From positions 2,418,001 through 2,482,000 of the forward strand of contig NZ_CP060398.1 of NCBI RefSeq assembly GCF_015840915.1: DNA of 64,000 nt. The letters run 5' to 3'. This document shows, in pieces, positions 27,282 to 44,678 of the stretch. Below the pieces are notes generated by a model. It did not search any database, was not told where the DNA came from, and saw only the letters and a program-made list of their open reading frames with translations. Positions within the stretch are counted from its first letter, which is position 1, and the number at the start of each line of letters is the position of its first letter. The stretch is from Synechococcus sp. CBW1002. Lineage in GTDB: Bacteria; Cyanobacteriota; Cyanobacteriia; PCC-6307; Cyanobiaceae. Both the position numbers and the translations under genes were made by a program.

Positions 27282-27374
27282 GGCGGGCTGATCCTTAGAG
27301 TGCAGCAGTCATGGCCTGCTGGCCGTGTCGCCCTTGCATCCTCTGGCCTCAGGCTTTCGGGATGGGGTGTGCGT

Positions 27375-33653: not shown

Positions 33654-33875
33654 ATGGATAAACTGATTCGGCATGCCGAGGTTTCCATGTCCTCGATGAT
33701 GACTCCGCTCTCCGTGCAGTTCACGCTTGAGCAGCGGGACTGGCTGGATGCGCGCACCCGCGGCGGCGTGCTCTCGCGTTCCTCGGTGATTCGGCTCATC
33801 GTGGCCGAGGCCATGGAACGCGAGCAGCTCGCCAGCAAGCCCCGCCAGCGCCAGGTGCTCGATGGCCAGCCCTGA
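33654..33875 (+). CDS. Small ribbon-helix-helix protein
   Basis: This 73-residue product matches the RHH layout: T-P-L-S-V-Q-F-T-L-E-Q-R-D-W-L-D-A-R-T, then S-R-S-S-V-I-R-L-I-V-A-E-A-M. It is the first gene of the rightward replication/packaging block and overlaps the primase-helicase start by 14 bp. It may regulate the divergent promoter region. Confidence 0.55.
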   Translation: MDKLIRHAEVSMSSMMTPLSVQFTLEQRDWLDARTRGGVLSRSSVIRLIVAEAMEREQLASKPRQRQVLDGQP

Positions 33876-36456
33876 AGCGGCCACCAGTCCCGCAAAGGCC
33901 TGCATCGACCGCGGCGCAGCCGAGCAGTTCCTCTCCCTGCTGGGCAAGGACCCTGCCAGCGCCCGGCTGCGTGCCTTCCCCCATCGCGGCAACCCCGCCA
34001 AGGGAGCAATCGGCGCCCGCAAGGGTCCTTTCGAGCTGGCGGTGGCGGAGCAGTGGCAGCGGGAAGGCCGCGGCATTTACCTGGTGATCAACGACGGCGG
34101 CGACCGCAAGAGCGAGATCACGGCCTGCCGGGCGTTCTTTGTGGAATGGGACGACCGGCCTATCGCCTGGCAGCTGAACGCCTGGAAGGAGCTGGGGCTG
34201 CCCGAGCCCTCGCTGATCGTGCTCAGCGGAGGCAAATCTGCCCATTGCTACTGGCTGCTGGAGCAGCCCATCCCGCCAAAGGAGTGGGCGCCGCTGCAGG
34301 CCGAGCTGATCGCCTATGCCAGCGGTGATCCCCACTGCAAGGACGCCTCACGGGTGATGCGGCTGCCGGGCTGCTGGTACGTGGATGCGGCCGGCGAGCC
34401 CACCGCCCTGGTGGAGCTGGTGCATGTGAGCGGCCAGCGCTACGCCCCTGATGACATCTCCCTGGCGCTGCTGCCCGATGAGTTCGCCGAACCCGCTGCA
34501 GACCCTTCAGCCCAGCAAGCAATCCCCCTGGAGGCCCCCTGTGAAGCCTCCGGCACTGGAATTCCGCTGCCTGAGCTGGGCGATGAGGACTTCGGGCCGC
34601 CGCGGCCGCTGGAGCAGATCCGCACCGCCCTGGCCGCCATCCCCCGCCGGGTGGCCGGCAGCAACACCTACTCCGACTACCGCAATCTCCTCTGGGGTTT
34701 GATTCAGGCCTGCGAGCAGGCCGGCCACGACCGGGAGCTGGCGATCGCCCTGATGGAAGCCCACAGCCCCTCGGCCAGCTGCGGCTGGGACATCCGCCAG
34801 GTGGCCAGCTCTGGAGGCGAGCAGATCAGCGCGGCGACTTTCTGGTTCCACGCGCGTCAGCACGGCTGGCTGCCGCCGGAGCCTGCCCACACCCCGAGGC
34901 CTCCTGGTGCGCACGCCACAGGCAGCCGCCGACACCAGGGCGACACCGGTGGGCGCCATCCCGGTGGCAAGGGCACCGACCACACCAGCAATGCCAGGGG
35001 CACCAAAGGAGCTGGCTCTGGCGCAGGCCCGCAGCGCTTCTCGCCTCGGCCCGACACCCGGGTGCGCTGGGGAAAGGTGCACCTGCCGATCAACCGCCGC
35101 CTGAACGCCTTGGAGCACTGCATCCGATCCCTAGTGGGCCGTGAGCGCAACAGCCTGCGCCGCTCGGCCCGCGTGCGCGAGTCCCATGCCGCCCTGCAAC
35201 TCAAAACCGCCCTGCGGCTGCAGGAGATCGGTCAGCTGATCCTCGAGGCCCACGACCTACGCAATGGCAACCGCTTCCGCGGCCTCGATCAGGCCGAGCG
35301 GCTGGCAATGCCGCAACCGGTTGTGGCGTGGGAGATCCCCGGCTGCATCCCACGCCGCGACCTCTCGATCGTGGGCGGCCGGGCCAAGGTGGGCAAGACG
35401 CGGCTGGTGCATGCCCTGGCCCGCTGCCTGCTCTGCGCCGAGGACTTTCTCGGGTTCGGGGCGCCGGAGGAACCGCGGCCGGTGATCCTGGTGACCGATG
35501 ACCAGGGCGACGGCGACACCGCCCAGATGCTGCAGCAGCTCGGGATCTGGGATCACCCGTTGCTGCTCTGGTCGCGCCGGTTCCGGGCCACGGAGGCCAA
35601 CCTCGATGCCCTGCTGGCCTGTCTGGCCGCCCACCCTGGGGCGGTGGTGATCCTCGATTCGCTGCGCTCGATCACCCGCAGCTGCTGCTTTGGCGAGAAC
35701 GATCCGGAGATGGGGTCGCTGATCTATGACCTCAAGCACCAGATCACCGATGCCGGCGGCACGTTGCTGCTGATCCACCACTGCAATAAGGCCAACGACA
35801 CCACCGGCACCGAGGCCCTCTCGGGCCACAACGCCATTGCCGGGGCGGCCAACACGATCCTCACCCTCCACTACCTGGCCAAGGGCAATCGGTTGATCAA
35901 GGATTCACCCCAGCGCCGCCTGGTGCGCGAGGCCCGCTCCGGCCCACCCGCCGATCTGGTGGTGGCGATCGACGGCAACACCGGGGCCTTTGCCCGGCTG
36001 GGCACCTACGACGACCTGCAGGAGCAGCAGGAGCAGGAGAGCGATCTCGATCGCGCCGCTCAGCGGGTGCGCAAGGCCAGCGAAAAGCAGAAGGAGGCCC
36101 TGCGTTATCTCCAGGCGCTGCACACCAACGGTCTGGCCGGGGTGGGCCTGCTGGAGCTGCAGCAGGCGATCGGCATGGCGCCGGCGGAGGCGCGGCTCAA
36201 GCGGGACCTGGAGGGGGAAGCGCTGACCACCTACAAGACACTCCTATGGACTGTCAAGCCCCCGGACGCTCCGGCTGAGCGCCATCGAGGTGGCAGTGCT
36301 GACCAGCTCAGCCACGATGGCCGTGAACCAGCGCTGGCCACGCCGTGGAACCCGTCACCACCTCCAGCGAGCTGCTGCTGTGGGAGGCCATCGACCAGGT
36401 CCGTAGGGCAGAGGACGGTCCTGATCTCTCCCTCGATGAGCTGGCTGAGTGTGTGA
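33862..36456 (+). CDS. Phage replication protein: AEP-like primase fused to RepA-like helicase
   Basis: This 864-residue protein has an N-terminal RepB/AEP-primase-like domain: F-F-V-E-W-D-D metal-binding acids near residue 91, S-G-G-K-S-A-H-C-Y-W near 121, and D-A-S-R-V-M-R-L-P-G near 165. A Gly/Ser/His-rich linker (about 345-390) follows. The C-terminal RecA-fold AAA_25/RepA-like ATPase has Walker A G-R-A-K-V-G-K-T near 508 and Walker B V-V-I-L-D-S near 594. A winged-helix tail begins near 740. The last 70 residues or so lose recognisable structure and overlap the next gene by 112 bp, suggesting a damaged 3' end. It would prime and unwind DNA at the element's origin. Confidence 0.75.
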   Translation: MASPEAATSPAKACIDRGAAEQFLSLLGKDPASARLRAFPHRGNPAKGAIGARKGPFELAVAEQWQREGRGIYLVINDGGDRKSEITACRAFFVEWDDRPIAWQLNAWKELGLPEPSLIVLSGGKSAHCYWLLEQPIPPKEWAPLQAELIAYASGDPHCKDASRVMRLPGCWYVDAAGEPTALVELVHVSGQRYAPDDISLALLPDEFAEPAADPSAQQAIPLEAPCEASGTGIPLPELGDEDFGPPRPLEQIRTALAAIPRRVAGSNTYSDYRNLLWGLIQACEQAGHDRELAIALMEAHSPSASCGWDIRQVASSGGEQISAATFWFHARQHGWLPPEPAHTPRPPGAHATGSRRHQGDTGGRHPGGKGTDHTSNARGTKGAGSGAGPQRFSPRPDTRVRWGKVHLPINRRLNALEHCIRSLVGRERNSLRRSARVRESHAALQLKTALRLQEIGQLILEAHDLRNGNRFRGLDQAERLAMPQPVVAWEIPGCIPRRDLSIVGGRAKVGKTRLVHALARCLLCAEDFLGFGAPEEPRPVILVTDDQGDGDTAQMLQQLGIWDHPLLLWSRRFRATEANLDALLACLAAHPGAVVILDSLRSITRSCCFGENDPEMGSLIYDLKHQITDAGGTLLLIHHCNKANDTTGTEALSGHNAIAGAANTILTLHYLAKGNRLIKDSPQRRLVREARSGPPADLVVAIDGNTGAFARLGTYDDLQEQQEQESDLDRAAQRVRKASEKQKEALRYLQALHTNGLAGVGLLELQQAIGMAPAEARLKRDLEGEALTTYKTLLWTVKPPDAPAERHRGGSADQLSHDGREPALATPWNPSPPPASCCCGRPSTRSVGQRTVLISPSMSWLSV

Positions 36457-36992
36457 TGGCCGCCCTGGGTTCATCGCTGTCGCTGCAGCAGATCTGCAGA
36501 GCGGCTGATGGCTTGCTGCACCTGGCCGACGATCCCAGCCAAGGGAGCGCCGCACGGCAGGTTCCTGTGGTCGATGTGCAGGCCGTGCAGGAGAGGGCGC
36601 TGAATCTCTTGGATTGGCAGGAGCTGGAGGATGGCGACGATCGCAGCGACAACCAGAAGCTGATCGACAACGCCACCGATCCCGACACCGTGCTCGTGCG
36701 CGATCCCTCCGCCACTCCGGAGCTGCAGGAGATCGGCATCCTCGAGCTCCTGCAGCGCTATCCCTGTCGCGGCAACGATGCCCGCTGGAGCCCCGACGAT
36801 GCCATCGCCTTCCTGGAGACAAAGGCCCGCTGGCTGGATGCGGCACTGGAGACCTGGGAGGCCGATGGCGAGGCCATGGCCGACGACAGCGACGTGAGCG
36901 AGGCCAAAGCCGTCGTGCTGGTCGTGCCGGAGAAGCCTGGCCAGGCGTTGCTGTCCGAGGTGCTCGACGTGCTGATCCCCGTGGAGGAGTGA
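36345..36992 (+). CDS. Acidic helical phage protein, unknown
   Basis: The 215-residue product starts at GTG, is strongly acidic and predominantly helical, and has no motif I recognise. It overlaps the disordered 3' end of the primase-helicase gene and is followed 21 bp later by a perfect 21-bp hairpin. It could be a replication accessory protein or passenger DNA. Confidence 0.45.
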   Translation: MEPVTTSSELLLWEAIDQVRRAEDGPDLSLDELAECVMAALGSSLSLQQICRAADGLLHLADDPSQGSAARQVPVVDVQAVQERALNLLDWQELEDGDDRSDNQKLIDNATDPDTVLVRDPSATPELQEIGILELLQRYPCRGNDARWSPDDAIAFLETKARWLDAALETWEADGEAMADDSDVSEAKAVVLVVPEKPGQALLSEVLDVLIPVEE

Positions 36993-37013
36993 ACCACCGG
37001 CCGGCTCTCGTTC

Positions 37014-37060
37014 TGGCAGATCCGTTGCCTGCCGCCCCACGGCAGGCAACGGATCTGCCA
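37014..37060. terminator. Perfect 21-bp hairpin between the acidic gene and the IS110 gene
   Basis: Arms 37014-37034 and 37040-37060 are exact reverse complements with a 5-nt loop (CCCCA). There is no T-run on either side, so it is not a classical intrinsic terminator, although it would be a very stable RNA hairpin between two converging genes. It could alternatively be a target structure for the IS. Confidence 0.45.
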
Positions 37061-37094
37061 GGAGCCTGGGCTACTGGAGCAATCCTGCTGGCGA

Positions 37095-38177
37095 TCAGGC
37101 CGTTGCGGTGCGAACGGCGGGACCGCCGCGCAGGATGCCGAACACCTCGCGGGCGACGAACCGCTTGAGGCAGCGGATGATCTCCTTCATCGAGCGTCCT
37201 TCTGCCGTGCGTCGTTCGACGTACTCCCGGGTCTGCTGATGCCGCTGCAGCCGGCAGATCACGATGCGGTGCAGGGCGCAGTTGGCCTGGCGGTTGCCGC
37301 TGCGGTTCAGCCGGTGCCGCACCACCTTGCCCGAACTGGCGGGCAGTGGATTGACGCCACAGAGGGCAGCGAATGACGCCTCGGATTTCATCCGTTCCTG
37401 GTTGTCGCCAACTGCCACAACGAGGGTGGCACTGATGTCCACACCCACGCCGTAGGTGTTCCGCAGCTCGGGGCACAGCTGCATGGTCAGTCGATCCAGC
37501 TGCGTGACGGTTTCCTTGAGCTCCTCATCCAGCTGCTGGATGCGGCGCGCCAGGATGCGCAGGGTCATCTTGGCGGCCGCCTGAGGGGTGGTGATCTCGC
37601 CAGAACGCAGGCCTGTGCAGCTTTCGAGCAGCTCCTTTCTCTTGAGCCGCTGCAGCCGTTCCCGCAACGCTGCCGGCGCCGTCACCACGATGGCGTGCAG
37701 CTGATTGAGGGCTGCGGTGCGGTTCGCGGTGGCCGAATCCTTGGCCACCTTGAGCATGCGGATCATCTCCACCAAAGCGTCGCCCGCCTTGGGGATGACG
37801 CTGGCCGTTCCGGCGATACAGGCCCGTGCTGCGGCCTCCGCATCGATGGTGTCGTCCTTACCGATGCGCCGCCGCGTGGAGCGATCCGGCCGGTTCACTT
37901 CTACCACTGCCATCCCTGCGGCCTGCAGGGCGCGGCAGAGCCCGGCGCCGTAGCAACCGGTTCCCTCCACGGCGAATACCGGGTTGGAGCCGAATGCTGC
38001 GGCCCAGCGGATCAGCTCCTGGTAGCCACTGCGTTTGGCATCCAGCTTGAGGCTGCCCAGCCAGCCGCCATTGGCGCCCAGGGCCACCGCCATGTGCGTG
38101 AGTTTGTGGGTGTCAATGCCGACCACCACATCGTGGCCAGTGCTGATCTCGGGGGCATGTGCTGTCGCTGCGCTCAT
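37095..38177 (-). mobile_element. IS110-family transposase gene
   Basis: This 360-residue DEDD transposase has an N-terminal RuvC-like domain (D22 in G-I-D-T-H-K, Glu in A-V-E-G-T-G, the D-D-T-I-D-A pair) and a C-terminal Transposase_20 domain with the catalytic serine in L-P-A-S-S-G-K. ATG 38177 is preferred; a longer frame begins at 38204 inside a stem structure. IS110 elements lack terminal inverted repeats and are guided by a bridge RNA from a non-coding flank. The ends cannot be fixed from sequence alone. The element interrupts the phage replication block. Confidence 0.92.
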
Positions 38178-38189
38178 GACTGCTGGGGA

Positions 38190-38390
38190 CGGGAGGGGGT
38201 GCAACCAACCGGGCAGACGGACAGGCCATTGACGGGACGGGAACGTCGGACTCCTATGAGGTCACGGGACTTCCCGGCTGGTTGCCCCACCGCACGGACC
38301 GACAGGTCTTGTGAAAGACACCACCCCAAACTGGAGAAGGTCCGCCATGAGCAGGGTCAGGCCCGCGCTGGTGGGGTCCCGAAATCATCA
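38190..38390 (-). ncRNA. Candidate IS110 bridge RNA region
   Basis: About 200 bp of apparently non-coding DNA precedes the transposase start. It contains a long imperfect stem, GGTGCAACCAACCGGG (38198-38213) pairing with CCCGGCTGGTTGCCCC (38273-38288) at 14 of 16 positions, with smaller stems between and after. In characterised IS110-group elements the bridge RNA comes from this side. Boundaries and loops are not resolved. Confidence 0.35.
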
Positions 38391-38531
38391 ATGGCCATGG
38401 GCCGCTTCCTCGGCAGCCTGGACGGCTTGGTTACAGCCACCAGGGTGGGCACCAGCGGCGCCAGTTACTACCTCCGCTATGGGCTCAGTGACGCCGGCGC
38501 GGAGTGGCTGGCGCGTGAGTTTGATCTATAG
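38391..38531 (+). pseudogene. Orphan winged-helix C-terminal fragment
   Basis: The 46 codons from ATG 38391 read R-F-L-G-S-L-D-G-L-V-T-A-T-R-V-G and then Y-Y-L-R-Y-G-L-S-D-A-G-A-E-W-L. This is the recognition-helix/wing pattern at the end of a winged-helix domain. The frame is open upstream (G-V-P-K-S-S-M precedes the ATG) but runs into the IS110 flank. It looks like the severed 3' end of a gene, possibly the primase-helicase whose own tail is disordered, displaced by the IS insertion. Confidence 0.4.
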
Positions 38532-38537
38532 GGGGTG

Positions 38538-38901
38538 GATTCTTGCGATTCTTTGGATCTTCCTGCAGCGCAATTGATCTGACGCTTCTGGCAGAGCGGA
38601 CTCTCTCAGGATTCTCTGGATTCTTTGCTGGCCACCGCCAGTCCGACGCTGCTCACGGGCGACTGAACCACAACCGCTGGAGAAGGAGCTGGATTCGTTG
38701 GATTCTTTGGCCCCCTCACCAGCGCAGCCACTTTGGAGCGCCAAGCGGGCTGGATCCGTTCTGGATTCTTGGGATTCTTTGGGGGACCTCACTCCCTGCA
38801 GCAGACAGTCCCTGGGGATCAAAGAATCCAAAGTATCCAAAGAATCTCACGTTCGATCTTCTGCCCAGATCCCCTGCGCTGCAACGGGGTCCAAAGAATC
38901 C
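38538..38901. repeat. Array of 9-bp GGATTCTTT units in six spaced blocks
   Basis: Tandem nonamers occur in blocks at 38538-38555, 38609-38626, 38691-38708 and 38752-38780 on the plus strand (GGATTCTTT or one-base variants). They recur inverted at 38821-38847 (three units) and 38893-38901. Blocks are spaced about 60-80 bp. The 400-bp interval 38532-38934 otherwise holds no convincing gene. It follows the replication genes and precedes a nuclease gene, so an iteron-type origin or protein-binding array is possible. Confidence 0.75.
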
Positions 38902-38934
38902 AACCAATTTGGTGTATCTCGTGAGGTTCTGGTG

Positions 38935-39645
38935 ATGCCGACGACAACCTCCGCGCATGTCTTCGATCGCCAGATCGCTGCCGGTCCCTGGCTCAGGCCG
39001 ATCCCAGGCCTGCGGCGCACCGACCCGGAGCACCGCTACTGGCTGGGGGAGCACCTGTTCGCGGTGTCCGTCACCGGCGTGATCGGCTCAACCAAGAGCG
39101 AATGGGCGATGGCCCGCATCGAGGCCACCCGCCACGTCTGGGAGCCGCGGGGCCACACCGTGCACCTGGCGCTGGAGGCCCTGCTGCACAGCCGCTTCCA
39201 TCCCCTGCCCCAGCAACGCCAGCAGGCCAGCCGACTGCTGCAGCACCTGCGCTCTGGCGACTACCGGGACTGGATCGAGCCGTTGCTGGCCCACCCCCAC
39301 TGGCAGCAGGTGACGGTGATCGCTTCCGAGCGCCCCACCTGCTGCCTGATCCGGAACCTGGCCGGCACCTACGACACCGGCTACATCCAGCAGGCCGATG
39401 GCCTGCGGGTGCTCGCTGACCTCAAGACCCTCTCCAGGCCCGGATCGGGCAGCTACTGCACCCGCGCCCAGCTGGGTGGCTACATGGCACTGGAAGCCAC
39501 CTGGGGCGTGCACTACGACGCAGGCCAGACGATCTGGGCCCGGCCGGGGGAGACCCGCTTCTCGCCGCTGTATTCCCGCGAGGAATGCCTGGCCGCCTGG
39601 GCAGCGGCGTGGGCGGGCTACGTGAGCAGGTTCCGGCCCTGGTGA
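38935..39645 (+). CDS. PD-(D/E)XK superfamily nuclease (RecB/Cas4-like)
   Basis: This 236-residue protein has a central D-G-L-R-V-L-A-D-L-K-T motif (Asp and Lys of the D-x-K core) followed by Q-L-G-G-Y-M-A-L. The latter matches the QxxxY motif of RecB-like/phage exonucleases. Phage enzymes of this class process double-stranded ends for recombination-dependent replication. ATG 38935 starts after the 9-bp repeat array; the longer upstream frame is repeat-encoded and unlikely. Confidence 0.65.
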   Translation: MPTTTSAHVFDRQIAAGPWLRPIPGLRRTDPEHRYWLGEHLFAVSVTGVIGSTKSEWAMARIEATRHVWEPRGHTVHLALEALLHSRFHPLPQQRQQASRLLQHLRSGDYRDWIEPLLAHPHWQQVTVIASERPTCCLIRNLAGTYDTGYIQQADGLRVLADLKTLSRPGSGSYCTRAQLGGYMALEATWGVHYDAGQTIWARPGETRFSPLYSREECLAAWAAAWAGYVSRFRPW

Positions 39646-43361: not shown

Positions 43362-44666
43362 CTACCCGGCGCTTACCGGACAGGGAAGCTCATCCTTGAC
43401 TAAGCCCAGATCACAGTTTCGGAGGAAGAAAAAGAAGGTAGAATCAATCGCGTATAGCCGACGCTTGCCAATATCGTAGTCAATCAAGGGCGGATTGATG
43501 CCCTTCTTGTGCTGAAGAGTCGAGAGATTGTGAAGCAGATTGCTCATGTCAGATGGGCGCACATCATCCTTGCGATGATGATGCTGCTTGATCCTATCCG
43601 CAATGTCGGAGCGACTGATTCCATGCTCGAGGCCGGCGAATCCCATTTCCAGGATTGCGCAGACGAGATAGTACGGCAAGTGAAGTGGGGTCTTTTCTTT
43701 ATCTTTTGAGTGAGTAACATTGCCAGAGGAGATAAGCTCAAGCGCTTGAAGATGCGTGGCTCCGTATTGCTCCGCTTTCTCTTGAATCGCCGTGTTGGAG
43801 AAGTCAATGCTAGAGATCTGTTGCGACAACTGCCTCCACTCTGATACTCCTGCAGCGATGCATGTGTGCTTCAACAACTCCTGGAAAACGCCAATACTTC
43901 CGAAAGAATTTTCAATGCAATGCTGAATCACATCAGGCGCGAAATCGACATTCAGGTGCTTTGCCCCGTCCGTGGCAACTCTGTGAAACTCATCTTCAGT
44001 CCAAGGCTCTACGGCAACATCAACGACTCGGTCAGTGAGGTCGGGGCAATAGATTCGGAGCTTGTCTTTTTGGCGCCACACTCCCAGCACTACAAAGATG
44101 ACGCCCATTTCCTGAAAAGAGCGCAGATCGAAGGATAGCTGGCGCTGCTTCTCCTCTGTAAGGTAATGGAAGTTCTCTAGGACGATCTTCTTCTTAAAGT
44201 TCACGCTTTTTAAGAGCTCGGCGATATCTTGAGCAACGGCCAGGTTAAAAGGAATCGTTTTGAGGTTTTTTTGGCTCTTATCCACAGTCTTGAGTCCGCT
44301 TGACGCATTCGCCTCGCCCTCGCCAAAGAACCAAATTGTCGCCTTTGCCCTGATCCCCAGAGTTGCCGAAGCCTCTGAATCCTTCTCCTCCACCTTGCCT
44401 ATCTCAATATCTACTCCGCATTGGCGGAGGATGCTCGAGTAAATGTCCTCCACGTTGCTATTCGGCGAGAGGCGTACAACAACATTCTGGTCGTATGGCA
44501 GATACCGTGAAACCAGCGCTGTTTTGCCCTGCTTCGACGCTCCGTACACAACCACATGCTTATCCTCGTTTAATACGGCAGTGAAGAGTCCGTCAATGTT
44601 GTCGCGAACGATGTATGACAGCACTGGGTCTGCGCTGACGCCGAATACCTGGTTGAGGGTAGTCAT
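43362..44666 (-). CDS. AAA-type ATPase with C-terminal winged helix, probable cargo gene
   Basis: This 434-residue protein has Walker A G-A-S-K-Q-G-K-T at 42-49 and a Walker B-like I-V-L-E-N-F-H-Y-L at 161-169. A sensor-like V-L-G-V-W-R region and lid helices follow, then a C-terminal winged-helix-like domain (about 340-420). I have seen such stand-alone ATPases in bacterial genomes, but no function is established. The gene is noticeably richer in A and T than everything around it, is reversed, and sits between the sigma factor and portal genes, which is a common cargo position. ATG 44666 is chosen over GTG 44678. Confidence 0.6.
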   Translation of the reverse strand: MTTLNQVFGVSADPVLSYIVRDNIDGLFTAVLNEDKHVVVYGASKQGKTALVSRYLPYDQNVVVRLSPNSNVEDIYSSILRQCGVDIEIGKVEEKDSEASATLGIRAKATIWFFGEGEANASSGLKTVDKSQKNLKTIPFNLAVAQDIAELLKSVNFKKKIVLENFHYLTEEKQRQLSFDLRSFQEMGVIFVVLGVWRQKDKLRIYCPDLTDRVVDVAVEPWTEDEFHRVATDGAKHLNVDFAPDVIQHCIENSFGSIGVFQELLKHTCIAAGVSEWRQLSQQISSIDFSNTAIQEKAEQYGATHLQALELISSGNVTHSKDKEKTPLHLPYYLVCAILEMGFAGLEHGISRSDIADRIKQHHHRKDDVRPSDMSNLLHNLSTLQHKKGINPPLIDYDIGKRRLYAIDSTFFFFLRNCDLGLVKDELPCPVSAG

Positions 44667-44678
44667 TGTGCAATCCAC

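Follow-up and report, generated by a model that had tools for sequence, protein, structure and literature searches.

A bipolar array of 9-bp repeats behind a primase-helicase gene as candidate replication origin of a picocyanobacterial prophage

In RSF1010 the helicase, primase and iteron-binding initiator functions lie on the separate proteins RepA, RepB' and RepC, and the oriV iterons are about 20 bp long. The alpha protein of P4 holds primase, helicase and iteron-binding domains in one protein, with the two sites ori and crr. Fused primase-helicases and their cognate sites have been described (PMC7145576, PMC6092414). The C-terminal domain of SaPI Rep recognises iterons directly downstream of its own gene (PMC7581432), and PICI origins have been described as two sets of iterons 3' of rep, flanking an AT-rich region that is a possible melting site (PMC6092414). 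Here we analysed a locus of related layout in Synechococcus sp. CBW1002. The window is the whole stretch of 64,000 nt under analysis (NZ_CP060398.1, positions 2,418,001 to 2,482,000), and all positions are counted from its first nucleotide.

The repeat array and the interrupted rep gene

The features of the locus are the following.

33862-36237, plus strand: 5' part of rep, with an N-terminal AEP/PrimPol-like domain and an AAA_25 helicase core (PF13481)
36238-38393, no strand: IS110-family element splitting rep, ends uncertain by a few bases
38394-38531, plus strand: 3' end of rep, part of the C-terminal winged-helix domain, severed by the IS element
38537-38554, plus strand: forward iteron doublet 1 (GGATTCTTG CGATTCTTT)
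38598-38626, plus strand: forward block 2, degenerate unit 38598-38606 and doublet 38609-38626 (GGATTCTCT GGATTCTTT)
38691-38708, plus strand: forward iteron doublet 3 (GGATTCGTT GGATTCTTT)
38752-38780, plus strand: forward block 4, degenerate unit 38752-38760 and doublet 38763-38780 (GGATTCTTG GGATTCTTT)
38781-38820, no strand: 40-bp centre between the oppositely oriented sets
38821-38847, minus strand: inverted iteron triplet
38893-38901, minus strand: inverted single iteron
38935-39645, plus strand: exonuclease-like gene (phrog_298), the conserved downstream neighbour of the array

The interval 38537-38901 contains twelve units that match GGATTCTTT with no or one mismatch. Eight run forward, paired into four doublets, and the other four are inverted, three together as a triplet and one alone. 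This agrees with the preliminary description, which had counted at least 11 units of 9 bp in four forward and two inverted blocks. The units start at 38537, 38546, 38609, 38618, 38691, 38700, 38763 and 38772 on the plus strand and at 38821, 38830, 38839 and 38893 on the minus strand, and two further degenerate units (two mismatches, at 38598 and 38752) precede doublets 2 and 4, respectively, by 11 bp. Start-to-start spacing of the forward doublets is 72, 82 and 72 bp, and the distance from the inverted triplet to the inverted single is again 72 bp.

The whole window holds 15 matches of this kind against 3.2 expected, with 12 of the 15 falling within 365 bp. The best 9-mer count in the array was 12, whereas 40 dinucleotide shuffles averaged 2.8 and did not exceed 4. 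There is no second array of the GGATTCTTT repeat in the window, and the 18-mer doublet, at up to two mismatches, has no other site in the 3.85-Mb genome; the scatter of arrays through the host that had been named as the outcome speaking against an element-specific site was thus not seen. The 40-bp centre has 68% GC and is not AT-rich, and the lowest-GC stretch of the array is the inverted triplet. Rfam matched no RNA element within 36000-39200. A promoter or terminator explanation of the array was rejected, as the array showed no sigma-70-like promoter and the single weak terminator-like site was at chance level and outside it.

The rep ORF apparently ends at 36456 because the IS110-family element (about 2.15 kb) splits the gene. 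The element contains a transposase (37095-38204, minus strand) and a 215-aa ORF of unknown family (36345-36992). Its body of 2149 bp is present in four identical genomic copies and relatives carry an unbroken rep, so the insert is a mobile element that split the gene; all four copies sit at a similar ACAAG...GGCCATG target, and insertion therefore looks target-specific. The last approximately 46 Rep codons of the window are found at 38394-38531, and the array begins 5 bp past the rep stop codon, as it does in the intact relatives, where a single reading frame encodes a primase-helicase of about 840 aa right up to the array. Hence the placement of the array immediately between replication genes and a PD-(D/E)XK nuclease is correct once the IS element is removed, while in the window as it stands the element intervenes. 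In the same way, the absence of a convincing gene holds for the array itself, but not for the adjoining 38394-38531, which is the displaced 3' end of rep. In the genome of the window only the two pieces of the split rep match the Rep winged-helix domain, which leaves the putative origin without an intact initiator of its own kind.

Pfam gave AAA_25 (PF13481) as the sole match on Rep of the window. At the N-terminus, approximately 200 residues are similar to the cyanophage S-2L PrimPol. Identity to that protein is about 40% across 37% of the query, and the N-terminal domain matched the solved structure 6zp9, the S-2L PrimPol domain, at 2e-32. Downstream of the array the phrog_298 gene is followed by more phage genes as far as the large terminase subunit, and the presence of integrase, large terminase subunit, portal and scaffold genes makes the element a prophage rather than an island. 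The neighbouring genes tested included no recognisable partition gene. A tRNA-Ser at 27374 was rejected as integration site, as no second copy of at least 15 bp of this tRNA gene was found elsewhere in the window. Between the terminase and portal genes an AT-rich patch (about 48% GC) carries a gene for a 438-aa AAA-type ATPase (43362-44678, minus strand), which PADLOC matched to the candidate defence family PDC-S59 (E 2e-69) and which is probably prophage cargo.

Related loci and the Rep C-terminal domain

Relatives were collected by nuclease and Rep scans, which yielded many loci, both in IMG/VR and in Cyanobium, Synechococcus and Vulcanococcus genomes. As a general rule, each primase-helicase gene in these loci has an array of its own behind it. 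As the preliminary description had proposed to look for, most of the cyanobacterial loci carry a short-repeat array in the same slot, the gap between rep and nuclease, with units commonly of 8-10 bp and mostly above shuffles; in L068, L069, L080 and L089 the repeat count against shuffles indicated a weak array or none. The repeats themselves differ, and at least a dozen types occupy the slot, including GGATTCTTT, GGAAACTT, GAATCTTTG, GGATCCCTT, GGATACCC and CCGGACAA, further GCGGGAATT, TTTGCCGAT, CTGCTGAAC, ATGTTGGCT and TGTGGGCTT, plus others. Most types show the orientation switch along the array, which is perfect in the window, L113, L038, L096 and L116; by helicase it is perfect in several AAA_25 types and looser in DUF3987 types. 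The centre between the iteron sets is AT-rich in some other types, e.g. L090, L124 and L096. The Rep cores also vary by locus, with an AAA_25 or DUF3987 helicase and with or without a recognisable Prim-Pol/PriCT_2 primase. A blastn search with the array gave zero matches in the phage collection. The plasmid collection gave only partial matches, less than 60% identical.

In some of the relatives rep likewise looks interrupted. L056 and L075 show a break of the rep frame near codon 150 and L166 an internal stop, so rep-defective prophages may be common. The distant relatives L120 and L121, which lack this Rep, carry other dense repeats (CAGGCCTGG and GGCAGGGCG) at the corresponding place, about 300 bp upstream of the nuclease.

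We compared five loci with GGATTCTTT arrays (group A: the window, L055, L063, L074 and L076) and five with GGAAACTT arrays (group B: L056, L058, L061, L078 and L079), counting as fixed type differences those variable sites where a different base is fixed in each group. Rep codons 1-774 have 628 variable sites, and none was fixed in this sense. The last 198 nt of rep had 13 fixed sites among 72 variable ones, the array 54 among 203 and the few bases just past it 2 among 7, and in the nuclease and beyond there were again none among 650. The prophage of Synechococcus WH 5701, an intact relative, is an example of type A, and Vulcanococcus limneticus LL is one of type B. In the 3 kb upstream of rep, which hold the RHH and HTH genes, the count was 1 of 922 (four against three loci); these regulators thus do not co-vary with the repeat type and were rejected as binders of the array. 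Among the 126 possible 5/5 splits of the loci, the true A/B split alone yields fixed sites in the Rep C-terminus. Rep tail and array therefore move together as a single cassette, against a background that recombines. Physical linkage contributes to the co-segregation, yet it does not reach the equally close nuclease side, where the cassette boundary is sharp although the nuclease gene is only about 30 bp off.

Inside the array, the units are enriched in fixed differences (24/45) over the spacers (29/157, P=1e-5), and the spacers align. TT-to-AA changes between A and B occur at matching places in several units. B-type arrays are mixed, having GGATTCTT units beside GGAAACTT units, and L155 combines a D-type winged helix, a fourth type seen in further loci, with an array that is GGATTCTTT-like in its left blocks and belongs to another type in its right ones. 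The L155 array may be a recombinant or transitional origin. It should be noted that, given the mixed B arrays and L155, the match between domain and repeat is not strictly one to one.

The full-length Rep model was poor (mean pLDDT 53), and the model of the C-terminal domain alone was used. The last 110 residues were modelled as a winged helix (pLDDT 93, pTM 0.86) with helices at 14-28, 36-42 and 58-72 and strands at 78-84 and 90-96; it has the order of its class, helix, helix and recognition helix, and then a beta-hairpin wing. Five residues are fixed between A and B (787, 796, 807, 818 and 820, numbered by the 844-aa Rep of L074), and in the model they map to the recognition helix, its immediate flanks and the wing. 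The candidate specificity residues are K/M/R787, T/S796, S/K807, G/S818 and S/G820; at 787 the A types have K, the B types M and L062, a third type, R. Foldseek returned mostly winged-helix proteins for this domain, with weak E-values (about 0.01-0.1, best 0.011), and an archaeal Orc1-DNA complex, MarR proteins and a replication terminator protein are among the leading matches.

The origin reading and its alternatives

We suggest, with a probability of roughly 86%, that the array is a theta-type replication origin of the prophage, read by the winged helix of the adjacent Rep, and that the two form one swappable cassette. We favour this because the array lies directly 3' of rep, consists of short bipolar repeats and keeps its layout while the repeats turn over, and because it co-segregates with the Rep C-terminal winged helix; on the same grounds the earlier proposal of iterons at the origin of the integrated element is the best supported one. 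Rep, with its N-terminal PrimPol-type primase, AAA_25 helicase and C-terminal winged helix, would be made from the gene directly upstream, and its winged helix would bind the 9-bp iterons. The oppositely oriented iteron sets would probably position two Rep assemblies face to face, from which the helicase could load and open the DNA and the primase domain prime, so that replication would depart from the site. Iteron binding, the two assemblies, bidirectional firing and the origin activity itself are predicted here from sequence, the model and the SaPI/PICI work. Recombination of winged helix and iterons as a unit between related prophages would give many origin types in one genomic slot, and in the strain of the window the split rep would leave the origin without an intact copy of its initiator. 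Counting against this reading are the GC-rich centre of the window, the weak Foldseek E-values, the mixed arrays and the slot members without a clear array.

It could be imagined that a phage regulator (RHH, the HTH repressor or Rep itself) sits on the repeats and controls nuclease-terminase transcription without any origin being present, as the array is placed just upstream of the nuclease gene and winged helices are common in repressors. We find this improbable, since the RHH and HTH genes show no co-variation with the repeat type, the domain that does co-vary is part of a primase-helicase, and no sigma-70-like promoter accompanies the array. Transcription control by Rep through the array may still occur as a side effect. 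Plasmids and P4 (crr) are known to have additional iterons at a distance from the start site, and this, along with a centre that is not AT-rich, would suit a partition or copy-number/incompatibility site (parS- or inc-like) at which Rep or another protein binds but replication does not start. With no partition gene recognised among the neighbours tested, and with this being the sole array of its repeat in window and genome, such a site appears very improbable.

A chance or mutational repeat, or the functionless relic of a repeat-containing gene, we regard as negligible. The unit of 9 bp is a multiple of three and open frames do cross the interval, as a relic gene would have it, but the 12 units stand against at most 4 in shuffles, and the layout is kept across many prophages while the unit sequence shifts in step at matching positions. 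Returning to the origin reading, we further speculate, at slightly under even odds, that temperate phages of picocyanobacteria carry a recombinable initiator-origin cassette, a winged helix of about 60-100 aa plus a bipolar iteron array of about 370 bp, that is put onto otherwise shared replication proteins. Many coexisting specificities might then spare related prophages in one cell cross-initiation, and domain and 9-mers together might form a recognition code that can be read in evolution.

Comparison with known initiator-origin systems

The functions of helicase, primase and iteron-binding initiator occur together in RSF1010 as they do here, but there on separate proteins and with iterons of about 20 bp. 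P4 alpha is closer in having primase, helicase and (in our case predicted) iteron-binding domains in one protein; it differs in its two sites, as here one bipolar array lies right behind rep. S-2L PrimPol shares the N-terminal primase-polymerase domain, but the repeats downstream of it are not above shuffles (7 against a mean of 5.9 and a maximum of 8).

The preliminary description had not recognised the array as a known class, which is too strong, as the layout matches the SaPI and PICI origins as described (PMC7581432, PMC6092414). In both, two sets of short iterons come right after a primase-helicase initiator gene, the Rep C-terminal domain is the origin-recognition part (here by prediction), and several allelic types exist. 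The position immediately 3' of rep is found in the intact relatives and in the window after removal of the IS element, and the two sets are the 8 forward and then 4 inverted units. The window differs in having no AT-rich region between the sets, and its helicase core is AAA_25 (DUF3987 in slot-mates) in place of the DUF927 or D5-type of SaPI Rep. A PICI is moreover a satellite relying on helper virion proteins, whereas the prophage here has its own integrase, large terminase, portal and scaffold genes. In the limited open-access literature we found no paper describing such a rep-ori module in cyanobacterial prophages. The arrays are candidate origins for picocyanobacterial replicons, and the A, B, C and D repeat types on near-identical Rep cores offer a natural experiment in how the DNA target of a winged helix can shift. 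By this analogy the array and Rep would work as a pair like the SaPI/PICI rep-ori module, and a similar layout is now seen in cyanobacterial prophages that appear complete and whose helicase core is a different one.
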